Assembly (NCBI RefSeq): GCF_003813985.1
Contig: NZ_CP033897.1
Coordinates: 806,001 to 870,000, forward strand
DNA: 64,000 bases
Reading direction: 5' to 3'
DNA from: Corynebacterium gerontici
Lineage (GTDB): Bacteria > Actinomycetota > Actinomycetes > Mycobacteriales > Mycobacteriaceae
Shown here: positions 13,341-56,686 of the stretch, piece by piece
Numbering within the stretch: position 1 is the stretch's first letter
Layout of the letters: every line of letters begins with the position of its first letter
Notes under the pieces: model-generated
The model's input: the letters and a program-made list of their open reading frames with translations, nothing else
Told to the model about the DNA's origin: nothing
Databases searched by the model: none
Made by a program: the position numbers and the translations under genes

Positions 13341-13353
13341 GGGCGTCGAAAAG

Positions 13354-14976
13354 CTAGGCTTCGGCGACGTTAGGGTCCGCTGAGTTGTCGGCTTCCATCA
13401 TGCGCGTGGTCTCACGCAAAGGCTCGTGCTTGATGGCTGACACCAGTAGGAAGGCGATGACCACCAACGGCATGAGCACGATGAACACGGGCATAAGGGC
13501 GTCGTGGTAGGAGGTGATGAAGGCCTCGTGCAGCGGGCCGGGGAGTTGATCAACCAGGGTAGGGGTCACGCTGTTCGCGTCAATGCCCTGGCCGGCCACA
13601 GCTCGCGCCTGCTCGGGTGGGAGCTGCTGGGTTGCGGCCGGAAGGCGCTCGGTGAGCAATGGCTTGAGGTTGCCCACGAAGAGACCACCTACCAGCGCTG
13701 ATCCGATGGAGGCGCCGATTTGGCGCACGAAGTTGTTCACGGCAGTAGCAGACCCGACCACGTCCATAGGCAGAGTGTTTTGGACAACGAGTACCAACAC
13801 CTGCATACCCAGGCCAAGACCAACGCCGAGGGTAAATAGGCAGAGCCCGATGTACCACAGCGAAGAATCGACCTTGATGGCGTGGAACATGAACAGTGAA
13901 GCGAACACGATGGCCATGCCGATCATGGGGAAGTGGCGGTAGGAGCCCGTTTTGGTGATGCGCTGACCTGACCAAATGGAGCAACCCATCATGCCGACCA
14001 TCATCGGGATCATCATGTAGCCGGCCTCGGTCGCGGAGATCCCCGAAACCATCTGCAAGTAGGTGGGCAGGTAGCCCAGGACGCCGAACATGGTGATGCC
14101 GATAACCAGCCCGGCGAGGGTGGTGACGGTGAAGTTGCGATTGGCGAAGAAATCCAGGGGGATGAGGGGATTTTTTGCGCGCTTTTCGACGACGACCAAC
14201 AGGGACGCACCAATGACCGTGCTCGCGATCAGACCGATAATCAGCGGATCAGACCATTCGTAGGTGGTGCCGCCCCAGGTGGTGAACAGAATCAGTGAGA
14301 CGGTGGAGATGATCATGAGGATGGTGCCAGCGTAATCCCACTGCAGCGCCTTCTTTTCCGCCTTGGGGATGCGCAGGCGCCACATGGCGATGCCGATGGC
14401 GACGATGCCCAGGGGGATGTTCATCCAGAAGGCCCAACGCCAGCCGATGCCTTCGGTAAACCAACCGCCGAGTAGTGGTCCGAGCACCGCCGAGAGGCCG
14501 AAGATGCCACCCATGACGCCCATGAAACGGCCACGTTCGCGGGCGGGGACGACGTCGGCGATGATGGCCTGCGAGAGGATCATCAGACCACCGGCGCCGA
14601 TGCCTTGCACTGCGCGGCCGAGAATGAGGAGCGCCATGGTGTGGGCGACGCCACCGATCATTGAACCGAGAAGGAAGATGGTGAGGGCGCCGATGAACAG
14701 TGGCTTGCGGCCGACGATATCGCCAAGCTTGCCGTAGATCGGGAGCATGATGGTCTCACCGAGCATGTAGGCGGTAATTACCCACATCATGTGGTCTACA
14801 CCGCCGAGCTCGCCAACGATGGTGGGCAGAGCGGTGGAGAAGATCATCTGGTCGAGGCTGGCGAGCAGCATCGCAACCATGAGTGAAGAAAGGACCCACC
14901 AGGCACGTTTGCGTTGCTCAGGGGTCATCGAGGATTCGCGCTTTTGGCGCTTTCGCTCTTTGACGTTGTTCGTCAT
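13354..14976 (-). CDS. DHA2-type MFS multidrug efflux transporter
   Basis: 540 residues, 14 predicted membrane segments. Motif A-type loop [17 protein letters not shown], motif B-like [16 protein letters not shown] and the antiporter motif C region [14 protein letters not shown] mark the drug:H+ antiporter-2 family (EmrB/QacA). Asp in [15 protein letters not shown] (segment 1) is also conserved. ATG 14976 is chosen because AAAGGA lies about 5 nt upstream; a longer start would run into the regulator gene. It lies 19 nt downstream of a TetR regulator and is very likely its target. Substrates cannot be predicted. Confidence 0.9.
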
Positions 14977-14995
14977 TGTGTTCCTTTTGTTTCGT

Positions 14996-15670
14996 TTATG
15001 CCTGGAGTAGGTCAATGGTGGCTTGCAGCATTCTGGAGCTTGTGGCTCGCAAATGTGCGGGTGTGAGATTGCCGGAGTGTTTGGCGGACTGCATGGCCGA
15101 CATCACCGCGGAAAACACCACCCCGGTTAGTGCCCTGGCCTCGTCCTCGGCTGACTCCTGCGTCCTTCTGGCCTGCGGAAAGTGGGCGAAGTATTCGCTC
15201 ACCGCCTCTGTCACGGCTTCGCGGGCTCCATGAAAGCGGGCGATTTGGTGGCGAATGAACGCCGGTTCCTGTTCACAGATGCTTTTTCTGCGGGCTTCCG
15301 TTGCGGCATCGAAGAGTGAGTCACGATTGGGGTCCAGAATGAGGGATACCAGCAGACTCAGGGTGGATGCGGGCAGGTTTGCGTGTTGCTGGGAGCAGAA
15401 CGCCTGCACTTCTTCTTCGCTGAGTTCGCGGTGTCCGGTGCCGAGCACTGCCTCTTCTTTTGAATTGAAGTAATTAAAAAAGGTACGCCGGGAGATGCCC
15501 ACCGGCGCACAAATTTCGTCCACGGTGACCTCGTGGAATCCGCGCTCGAGCACTTGCTGCGTGGCGGCAGCTTCGATCGCTCGGTGGGTTCGGATGCGTT
15601 TGGCTTCCCGGTGGGAAAGTGTGGGATCGCTGTGGGAACCCGTGGGATCCGTGTGGGATTCTGTGGACAT
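14996..15670 (-). CDS. TetR-family regulator of the MFS efflux gene
   Basis: 224 residues. The helix-turn-helix region [20 protein letters not shown] followed by [11 protein letters not shown] is at about residues 48-75; the C-terminal ligand domain is variable, as usual. The first 25 residues are Ser-, Thr-, His-rich and repetitive ([16 protein letters not shown]). ATG 15670 is chosen; longer alternatives would cross the promoter. It heads a two-gene operon with the exporter, and an inverted repeat just upstream is a likely operator, suggesting an autoregulated drug-responsive switch. Confidence 0.9.
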
Positions 15671-15692
15671 GTCTGCGATTCTATGCCCAATA

Positions 15693-54304: not shown

Positions 54305-54313
54305 GCTTACGTG

Positions 54314-55291
54314 CTAGTTTTTGTGCAGCTCGGAGTTGAGCTCAACTGCCTGAGACTTCCACGGCACCGCCTCGATAGCGCCGCTGACGGAGTTGCGGCG
54401 GTAGAGGATGTTGTTGGCGCCAGAGAGATCAACGGCTTTGATGGTGTCGCCGTCGGATACGCCGAGCGCCTCGGCAACGGCACCGCGAGCGACGAGCTTG
54501 GATCCGGAGGTGACATAGAGGCCGGCTTCGATCACGCAGTCGTCGCCAAGCGGAATCCCGCAACCGGCGTTGGCACCTAACAGGCAGCGCTCGCCGATGG
54601 AGATGACGTGCTTGCCGCCGCCGGACAGCGTGCCCATGATCGAGGCGCCGCCGCCGATGTCCGAGCCATCACCAACCACCACACCGGCGGAGATTCGGCC
54701 TTCCACCATGGAGCTGCCCAGGGTGCCAGCGTTGAAGTTGACGAAGCCTTCGTGCATCACGGTCGTACCCTCTGCCAAGTGGGCGCCCAGGCGCACGCGG
54801 TCGGCATCGCCGATGCGCACGCCGGAGGGGATGACGTAATCGATCATGCGGGGGAACTTGTCCATGCAAAACACCGTGACCGGGCCGCGGCGCTGCAGGC
54901 GAGCCCGGGTGACCTCAAAGTGCTTCGGTGAGCAGGGGCCGAAGTTGGTCCACACAACGTTGTTCAACAAGCCAAAGATGCCGTCCAAGTTTAGTCCGTG
55001 AGGCTTGACTAGGCGGTGGGAGAGCAAGTGCAGACGCAGGTAGGCGTCGAAGGTGTCCTTAGGGGCGTCCTCGAGGCTTGAAAGCGTTGTGCGAATAACC
55101 TTGCGCTCAACTTTGCGGTCGCCGTCGGTGACCGAAAGCGCGCGGAAGTCCTCGGGAACCTCGCTGCCTTCGATCAACTCGGTGCCGGCTTCGGCTGGCT
55201 GTCCGCTGAGCTCCGGATACGGGAACCAAGCGTCCAAAATCTCGCCGTCTTGGGTGATCGTTGCAAGTCCAATGGCATGTGCAGAAGTCAT
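54314..55291 (-). CDS. dapD: Tetrahydrodipicolinate N-succinyltransferase
   Basis: 325 residues. An N-terminal helical domain is followed by a left-handed beta-helix of hexapeptide repeats; [15 protein letters not shown], then [20 protein letters not shown] and [20 protein letters not shown] are the substrate and succinyl-CoA sites as in mycobacterial DapD. It makes N-succinyl-2-amino-6-ketopimelate. TACACT lies 8 nt before the ATG, so the start is probably leaderless. A paralogue is encoded at 56815. Confidence 0.95.
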
Positions 55292-55321
55292 GGTGTTGCA
55301 GTGTACCTTTCTTGACGTTTC

Positions 55322-56686
55322 CTAGCTTCGCTTGCCTTTAACCAAGAAGGACAATCCTACGAGGGCGCCGAAGATCACGAGCACGGAAGTGATCTGGCCG
55401 CGGGAGGAGTCGTCGAAAAGCATGAGCATGACCAGGCCAGCGATGGCTGCCAGCGTGACCCACGTGAGCCAGGGGTAGCCCCACATGCGTACCGAGGTCA
55501 GCTCCCCGTTGCGCTTCATAATCGGGTGCAGCTTCAGATACGAGAACGCGATGAGAACCCAAATGACGATCAAGCAGCCGCCCACGGCGTTGAGCAGGAA
55601 GGCCAGCAGGCCCGGGGGATTCCAGTACTGAAGACCAACGGAGAGGAATGCGAACACCATCGACAAGATCACGGAAGAAGTCGGAACGCCCTGCTTATTG
55701 GTGGCAGCGAAAACCTTGGGGGCGTCGCCGCGTTCAGCCAGAGAATGCACGAGGCGGGAAGTGCCATAAATTTGCGCATTGAACGCCGAAAGCAGTGCTA
55801 ACACGATCACTGCCTCCATGAATCCCACGACGCCGGGAATGTTCGCCATCGCCAGGATTTGGGTGAAGGGCGATTCTGCGGCGGACTTGGCACCACCGAG
55901 CTGGTCATACGGCATGAGGAAAGTGATCACCAGGACTGAGCCGAGGTAGAACAGTGAGATGCGCCAGATCACGGAGCGCACAGCCACGCCGATGGCCGTC
56001 TTGGGATCCTCAGACTCTGCAGCGGCGATGGTGACGATCTCGATGCCGCCGAATGCGAAAGCCACGGCGAGTAAACCAGCGGCAACGCCGCCGATGCCAT
56101 TGGGCATGAAGCCGTGGTCGAGGAAGTTCTCGGTGCCAACAAAGGTGTGGCCCGGCAATAGGCCGAAGATCAGCAGCACACCAACGATGAGGAAGAAGAT
56201 GATGACGGCGACCTTGATGAAAGCGAACCAGAATTCGAATTCGCCGAAGCCGCGCACATTGGCGAGGTTTACGACGGCGAAAAAGACCACGCTGATCAGG
56301 GCTGGGATCCATGGCGAAACGCCAAACCAGGAGCTCATGATGGCTGCTGCACCGGTCATTTCTGCGCCCATGACCATGGTGAGCATGAACCAGTACAGCC
56401 AGCCGAGGGAGAAACCAGCCCAGTGGCCGAAGGCTTGTTCGCCGTAGATGGAAAAGGAGCCGGAGGCGGGACGCGCCGAGGCCATTTCGCCGAGCATTTG
56501 CATGACGAACACGACGATGGCGCCGGCGATGATATAGGCGATGAGCACCGCAGGGCCTGCCGCCGCAATGCCCACGCCAGTTCCGAGGAACAAACCGGCG
56601 CCGATGGCAGAGCCGAGACCCATCATGGTGAGGTGTCGAGTTTTCAGGCCCGCACCGAGCGCTGTGTCATTTGTTGTTTGGGACAT
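55322..56686 (-). CDS. Amino acid permease, AroP/AAT type
   Basis: 454 residues, 12 membrane helices. GLKTRHLTMMGLGSAIGAGL with the GxGIG-like GAGLFLGTGVGI motif is the APC-superfamily helix 1, and GEMASARPASGSFSIYGEQA the AAT signature region. The locus between dapD and the dapD paralogue corresponds to aroP in C. glutamicum, an aromatic amino acid permease; substrate by synteny only. It lies upstream of dapD on the same strand, 30 nt away. A copy of the 11-mer lies inside its 3' part. Confidence 0.9.
   Translation of the reverse strand: MSQTTNDTALGAGLKTRHLTMMGLGSAIGAGLFLGTGVGIAAAGPAVLIAYIIAGAIVVFVMQMLGEMASARPASGSFSIYGEQAFGHWAGFSLGWLYWFMLTMVMGAEMTGAAAIMSSWFGVSPWIPALISVVFFAVVNLANVRGFGEFEFWFAFIKVAVIIFFLIVGVLLIFGLLPGHTFVGTENFLDHGFMPNGIGGVAAGLLAVAFAFGGIEIVTIAAAESEDPKTAIGVAVRSVIWRISLFYLGSVLVITFLMPYDQLGGAKSAAESPFTQILAMANIPGVVGFMEAVIVLALLSAFNAQIYGTSRLVHSLAERGDAPKVFAATNKQGVPTSSVILSMVFAFLSVGLQYWNPPGLLAFLLNAVGGCLIVIWVLIAFSYLKLHPIMKRNGELTSVRMWGYPWLTWVTLAAIAGLVMLMLFDDSSRGQITSVLVIFGALVGLSFLVKGKRS

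Follow-up and report, generated by a model that had tools for sequence, protein, structure and literature searches.

A short genome-wide signal of Corynebacterium with a C-rich tail, likely a DNA uptake sequence

The closest described counterparts of the element studied here, a short word repeated throughout the genome of Corynebacterium gerontici and noticed in a stretch of 64,000 nucleotides (genome positions 806001-870000, the whole of which is called the window), are the DNA uptake words of Neisseriaceae and Pasteurellaceae, which a review terms convergent (PMC5031613). The DNA uptake sequence (DUS) of Neisseriaceae is reported as a word of 10-12 bp with about 1,900 copies in N. meningitidis and dialects in its relatives (PMC3630211, PMC7811141), and the uptake signal sequence (USS) of Pasteurellaceae has been described with ~1,465 copies at a mean spacing of ~1 kb, an even spread and two dialects, with the minor pilin PpdA/ComN proposed as its receptor in 2025. 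The corynebacterial word, GCTTNTCGACG, is unrelated in sequence to either. It is like the DUS, which is read by the minor pilin ComP, in its short form, high copy number and dialects; it differs in belonging to an actinobacterial genus, in having no link to terminators, in having a receptor and an uptake process that are putative, and in being accompanied by comEC and a pilus locus of the Tad type, where the neisserial system has a type IVa pilus. It is like the USS in combining a strong core with weaker flanking segments, an even spread and dialects, but its flank is C-rich and not AT-rich and its density is lower, at one copy per 2.7 kb. Chi sites are likewise over-represented, directional and scarce in mobile DNA, as is the corynebacterial word; the latter, however, has no replication-strand bias, is longer, and is unlinked to the presence of a RecB-like gene. 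HIP1, a palindromic and very abundant short word of cyanobacteria, is similar as an abundant word of one bacterial group, whereas the corynebacterial word is non-palindromic and has a one-sided tail and a strand-wise spacing. Altogether, we regard GCTTNTCGACG with its C-rich tail as a genome-wide corynebacterial signal that is likely a DNA uptake sequence, with a probability of roughly two in three.

An earlier note on the window had reported 12 exact copies of an 11-mer, GCTTTTCGACG, on both strands between positions 13344 and 55421, 7 of them intergenic, with Leu-Phe-Asp read on the gene strand in 4 of the 5 genic copies; every one of these copies was recovered, and both the placement (by crude gene calls) and the reading were borne out. 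Dinucleotide shuffles of the window gave an expectation of 0.04 copies (100 shuffles, largest 1). A one-mismatch scan of the window found 11 further copies, and because 10 of these 11 differ solely at position 5, the word is better written as GCTTNTCGACG, of which the window holds 22 copies. The 11-mer is real, but the unit was drawn too narrowly, since position 5 is variable and a C-rich tail belongs to the signal. The flanks of the 22 copies differ and contain no longer shared repeat, and a comparison of Rfam models with the window gave no match. The earlier note is supported in calling the word a conserved short signal and in setting it apart from transposon ends and protein domains.

Genome-wide, on a single contig of 2,263,210 bases, GCTTNTCGACG was present in 836 copies (417 forward and 419 reverse), compared to 32 copies (17 forward and 15 reverse) of its reversed pattern, which served as a control. 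The count called for by the earlier note is therefore far from random expectation, and neither of the outcomes it had named as contrary to its claim, a near-random count or membership in a longer repeat family, was observed. The anatomy of the signal was assessed in the window and 20 further stretches (395 kb), together 459 kb with 165 sites, and sites were present in all 21 stretches. An A is favored directly 5' of the core, and the N of GCTTNTCGACG is T in 83 of the 165 sites and in 41 of the 55 intergenic ones; the commonest single change within the core is at position 6. Downstream, a C-rich segment follows at positions 12-16, with 44 to 65% C, and 104 of 165 sites have C at position 22. 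Around the core there are only graded preferences and no fixed longer repeat. The C-rich tail is seen at intergenic sites as well and is found again in several dialects; in genes, codon rhythm contributes to it. These data indicate that the unit is the GCTTNTCGACG core plus the C-rich tail, roughly 22 bp in all.

The placement of the 165 sites was assessed with gene calls from a crude script (407 genes, 85.7% coding), in which sites straddling a gene end were scored as intergenic. Of these sites, 110 were genic and 55 lay outside or across a gene end, versus about 24 expected, and 8 of the 55 abut the stop codon of a same-strand gene. Site density was ~1.8 per kb between convergent genes, 1.0 between divergent genes, 0.7 between co-directional genes and 0.28 within genes. 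The genic sites use both strands and several reading frames, and 66 of the 110 read Leu-(Val/Phe/Ile/Leu)-Asp. Shuffles that kept the proteins and the codon pool, a control that the earlier note had proposed, yielded a mean of 2.4 sense and 2.2 antisense copies (n=200; largest 7 and 6), compared to the 74 sense and 36 antisense copies observed. Given this excess over synonymous shuffles, the word is selected as DNA. The replication-strand bias that the earlier note had thought worth seeking was not found, as 84 sites lay on the leading and 81 on the lagging strand, with origin and terminus located by the sign of the GC skew. Across the 459 kb sampled, the sites favored no macrodomain or replichore. 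Around the presumed terminus they seem sparser (stretches L039 to L043, ~0.9 to 1.38 Mb, with 2 to 6 per 20 kb versus up to 14 elsewhere), in what is a small sample.

Across the genus, 175 of 242 Corynebacterium genomes hold at least 60 copies of the word and 67 hold fewer, with the tallies over genome tables and the choice of genomes made by eye, and in about 189 of the 242 the wider form GCTTNNCGAYG is at least 3 times as frequent as its reversed control. None of 185 genomes from 30 other genera of the family reached that ratio with this form, the only word searched there, and the largest ratio was ~2.7; the comparison with related genomes that had been suggested for the 11-mer thus yields an excess across Corynebacterium and none comparable in its sister genera. 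The spelling varies within the genus. G009, G010 and G059 are rich in GCTTATCGACG; G005 uses GCTTNACGACG, in its wider form GCTTNNCGACG (103 in 140 kb versus 3.2 expected); and G001 and G096 use GCTTGCCGATG followed by C-rich sequence. The motif-poor genomes G054, G012 and G080 carry another word instead (GATTGACGACG, TGACGYCGCG and TTATTGACGCC, respectively), G087 has a weak form, and no clear word was found in 140 kb each of G007, G018, G043 and G206. Six further low-count genomes were represented by 40 kb or by no sample. The sample of G131 (L168 to L172, 100 kb) is dominated by a repeat array, with a unit around CCTCCGCGTGCGCGGAG occurring ~51 times; the array looks like a CRISPR array. 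Among 80 named com loci, 58 are of the CGACG type, 7 of the CGATG type and 15 of neither, at thresholds set by the analyst, and on a ComEC tree the CGATG type requires at least 3 changes.

The spacing of the sites depends on strand. Among pairs of sites less than 1 kb apart, 4 are on the same strand versus 28 on opposite strands in the C. gerontici genome, 15 versus 42 in seven other motif-rich genomes, 16 versus 44 in G005, 8 versus 18 in two CGATG genomes, 14 versus 20 in G012, and 93 versus 134 in the 80 named loci, which are homologous so that their pairs are not independent. The excess of opposite-strand pairs extends to 2 kb in the C. gerontici genome only. Among its first 100 forward copies, the minimum gap is 669 bp and a single gap is shorter than 870 bp, versus 14.7 expected (0 of 20,000 simulations gave so few). 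Because same-strand pairs are avoided, a copy appears to render a second same-strand copy redundant over ~1 kb, but not an opposite-strand copy; and since same-strand sites repel each other while opposite-strand sites do not, the signal is probably directional, each copy being of use to DNA that lies to one side of it. For H. influenzae, it is reported that a second USS within 100 bp gives no extra uptake (PMC7811141).

Single sites were followed between species. In all 36 close species pairs compared, divergence is lower in the core than in the flanks, although these pairs are not independent and the comparison starts from the sites of one species, which biases it towards low core divergence. 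At 5-6% divergence, for instance, 12 of 12 sites are shared, with a core divergence of 0 and a flank divergence of ~0.04; one pair has nearly equal values for core and flank (0.079 and 0.082), and distant pairs display much turnover of sites, with, for example, 3 of 12 shared. Five loci of the C. tuberculostearicum clade were also aligned with four of its sister clade, that of C. macginleyi. At the seven positions where both clades have a site, the C. tuberculostearicum clade has C at position 10 of the word in 32 of 34 readable rows (the two exceptions, one row each of L210 and L191, have T), and all 27 rows of the C. macginleyi clade have T. One of the seven departs from the pattern by a base in the C. 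macginleyi clade (GCTTATTGATG), and at others individual rows are damaged. Most shared sites therefore differ in the same letter in the same direction, and this co-ordinated re-spelling in the alignment points to a single reader whose preference changed. Both the CGACG and the CGATG form occur in L191, L183, L210 and their relatives in the C. tuberculostearicum group, which looks like a coexistence of two dialects.

The word is scarce in mobile DNA. Three corynephages (127.7 kb) contain 1 copy, versus 33 to 39 predicted from host density, and seven plasmids (six from C. glutamicum and one from C. callunae; 217.1 kb) contain 0, versus 57 to 66 predicted; the wider GCTTNNCGAYG occurs 1 time in the phages and 10 times in the plasmids. 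The host of phage BFK20, given as Brevibacterium flavum, is taken by us to be C. glutamicum, and host density was that of three genomes sharing a C. glutamicum primer sequence. A plasmid search with the window as query returned no Corynebacterium record. The primer in question, published for the cloning of a C. glutamicum LOG gene, contains GCTTTTCGACGCCCC (PMC4979012) and, as a piece of sequence, suggests that C. glutamicum uses the word; a search of 25 genomes found 23 of its bases in three, G064, G214 and G034, all of them motif-rich.

The C. gerontici genome also encodes candidate uptake machinery. Genes comEA and comEC are adjacent, and the ComEC frame (465 aa; L051:1438-2835) scores above the cut-off of the ComEC N-terminal model and below that of the full ComEC/Rec2 model. 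It aligns to positions 112-425 of the 663-position ComEC/Rec2 model only, and because of this partial match and the short frame the C-terminal domain is seemingly missing. In the Tad locus, a CpaE-like protein, TadA and an Rv3654c-type TadE-like protein score above cut-off and an Rv3655c-type minor pilin below it; further frames were read as TadB, TadC and a Flp-like pilin and had no model match. comEC is present in 241 of 242 Corynebacterium genomes and TadA in 78 of 78 genomes tested (77 above cut-off). TadA of 37 motif-rich genomes scores 428 to 487 bits; among 37 motif-poor genomes, 23 score 366 to 416 bits, the lowest of all, and the other 14 score 440 to 487, a split that may reflect phylogeny only. 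The clearly divergent TadA group among the motif-poor genomes comprises G007, G011, G018, G120, G142, G241 and 17 others. In another actinobacterium, Micrococcus luteus, TadA ATPases and ComEA have been described as transformation proteins (PMC6667448).

Taken together, the genomic features of an uptake sequence that could be tested are present, namely hundreds of chromosomal copies on both strands, dialects, scarcity in plasmids and phages, and uptake genes in the host, apart from the usual but non-defining link to terminators. Competence, uptake and a receptor are inferred, as is, from the strand-wise spacing, a one-sided action of the copies. Competent cells would bind DNA in which the word is present and take it in; most such DNA would come from their own species. 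A surface receptor, at best guess a Tad-locus minor pilin or ComEA, would read the ~22-bp signal; the pilus would draw the fragment across the outer layer of mycolic acids, one strand would enter through ComEC, and homologous recombination would then copy the signal into the chromosome, with each directional copy acting for DNA that lies to one side. Over time the signal would spread, DNA not recombining with the chromosome would remain free of it, and a change of receptor would drive all sites to a new spelling.

Several observations weigh against an uptake sequence. Terminator-like hairpins, called by a crude script, accompany 23 of the 55 intergenic sites, and 123 of 300 intergenic places picked at random have one nearby; because these rates are alike, there is no enrichment at terminators, for which the earlier note had proposed to look, in contrast to Haemophilus, and inverted pairs serving as terminators, common though not defining for known uptake sequences, were not found. 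The re-spelling is incomplete, since the seven shared positions are among 28 aligned positions with a site in some row, and at four positions not shared with its sister the CGACG (C. tuberculostearicum) clade itself carries CGATG sites. The strand effect is weak past 300 bp among the 80 named loci. Gene presence was rejected as a separator of motif-rich and motif-poor species, because comEC and TadA occur equally in both; the uptake genes of the host are thus also present in motif-poor species. Between the two dialect clades, identity falls from 89 to 67% for ComEA and from 95 to 76% for ComEC, more than for HolA and NadD (gene names here are the analyst's reading of the frames); however, a DegV-like neighbor falls as far, from 95 to 75%, so no gene is singled out as the receptor. 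The scarcity in phages and plasmids would also be expected of a chromosome-organizing protein or of a Chi-like site. Lastly, among the matches listed in the open-access literature there was no report of natural transformation of corynebacteria, nor any of the word as a signal. The word itself was met inside cloning primers in C. glutamicum papers, and its reverse complement, among the matches listed, in unrelated papers only; a motif-discovery study gives CRISPR-related pairs for corynebacteria (PMC5217627).

The analogues offered for the 11-mer, namely uptake sequences, Chi-like sites and sites of a chromosome-organizing protein, are narrowed by these data to an uptake sequence as the likeliest. 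The strongest rival is an intracellular protein of chromosome organization, segregation or the nucleoid that would read a directional site every few kb on each strand, with dialects following changes in the protein. Such a protein would require no competence, the even genome-wide spread, the conservation of single sites and the absence from plasmids and phages fit it equally well, and the strand-wise spacing calls for a directional reader. No candidate protein was found, however, and the 459-kb sample displayed no macrodomain or replichore preference, although density looks lower at the terminus. Known organizing sites are also unlike the word, in that KOPS are polar, matS are restricted to a domain and parS are few; the strong origin-to-terminus polarity of KOPS was not seen in the sampled sites. 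We consider a chromosome protein unlikely, though the strongest competitor.

A Chi-like site, which, acting from one side only, would make a helicase-nuclease at a DNA end halt degradation and load RecA, is less probable still. Directional behavior, over-representation and scarcity in phages and plasmids would suit it, and the C. gerontici genome has a RecB-like frame below cut-off (1154 aa, G000:C1:1452936-1455443; 294 bits, cut-off 696). Chi of E. coli, however, is strongly biased to one replication strand, which the word is not; core and tail together are longer than any Chi known to us; and RecB above cut-off was found in 0 of 34 corynebacterial genomes, at a cut-off that is perhaps strict, as 1 of 14 control genomes passes it. 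Long RecB-like matches occur in 8 of the 34, the others having weaker UvrD-type matches only, and are distributed as 5 of 22 motif-rich, 3 of 8 motif-poor and 0 of 4 dialect genomes. The absence of strand bias and of a link between the RecB-like gene and the motif thus makes a Chi-like use less likely, although an AdnAB-type enzyme is a possible reader of such a site. The copy number alone would also be compatible with a dispersed mobile repeat, but the flanks differ among the 22 window copies and the 165 sampled sites; and an artefact of codon use or composition is at odds with shuffles that keep dinucleotides, or proteins and codon pool, and yield 0 to 7 copies. The use of both strands and several reading frames speaks against either explanation, and we give them almost no credence.

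The copies in the window are listed in Table 1. The minus-strand frame at 13357-15015 is a gene for a DHA2-family multidrug efflux transporter (260 bits, above the EmrB subfamily cut-off), with one copy of the motif within it and another at its end.

Table 1. Copies of the word in the 64,000-nt window, in window coordinates.
Motif	Coordinates	Strand	Placement
GCTTGTCGACG	6929..6939	+	intergenic by crude gene calls
GCTTGTCGACG	11617..11627	-	in a gene
GCTTTTCGACG	13344..13354	-	intergenic, at end of frame 13354-15015
GCTTTTCGACG	14181..14191	+	in a gene, antisense
GCTTTTCGACG	17124..17134	+	in a gene, Leu-Phe-Asp
GCTTATCGACG	17665..17675	-	intergenic by crude gene calls
GCTTTTCGACG	22400..22410	+	intergenic, divergent genes
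GCTTTTCGACG	24154..24164	-	in a gene, Leu-Phe-Asp
GCTTCTCGACG	28785..28795	-	in a gene
GCTTTTCGACG	31566..31576	-	intergenic
GCTTTTCGACG	33027..33037	+	intergenic
GCTTATCGACG	36262..36272	+	in a gene
GCTTGTCGACG	37351..37361	-	in a gene
GCTTCTCGACG	41202..41212	-	in a gene
GCTTTTCGACG	41913..41923	+	intergenic
GCTTTTCGACG	45622..45632	-	intergenic, immediately 3' of stop codon
GCTTGTCGACG	47476..47486	+	in typA
GCTTTTCGACG	49546..49556	+	in a gene, Leu-Phe-Asp
GCTTTTCGACG	54262..54272	+	intergenic, immediately 3' of stop codon
GCTTTTCGACG	55411..55421	-	in permease gene, Leu-Phe-Asp
GCTTATCGACG	58053..58063	+	in a gene
GCTTGTCGACG	61864..61874	+	in a gene

Somewhat less firmly than the uptake sequence itself, we lean towards a wider proposal, namely that corynebacteria, including C. 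glutamicum, are naturally transformable and have a third uptake sequence, independently evolved, directional and without precedent among Gram-positive (mycolic-acid) bacteria, read by a Tad minor pilin or ComEA and with dialects that isolate species genetically; we know of no earlier DNA uptake sequence in Gram-positive bacteria. If this holds, self-recognizing natural transformation would be widespread in a genus that matters in industry, on the skin and in the clinic, and DNA uptake sequences would have had a further origin, in cells with another kind of outer layer and probably another kind of pilus. The transformation of C. glutamicum with DNA tagged with the word, and the identity of the receptor for the word, would become testable questions, and the two sister clades (C. 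tuberculostearicum and C. macginleyi) would represent a natural experiment on the joint change of a receptor and its hundreds of sites.

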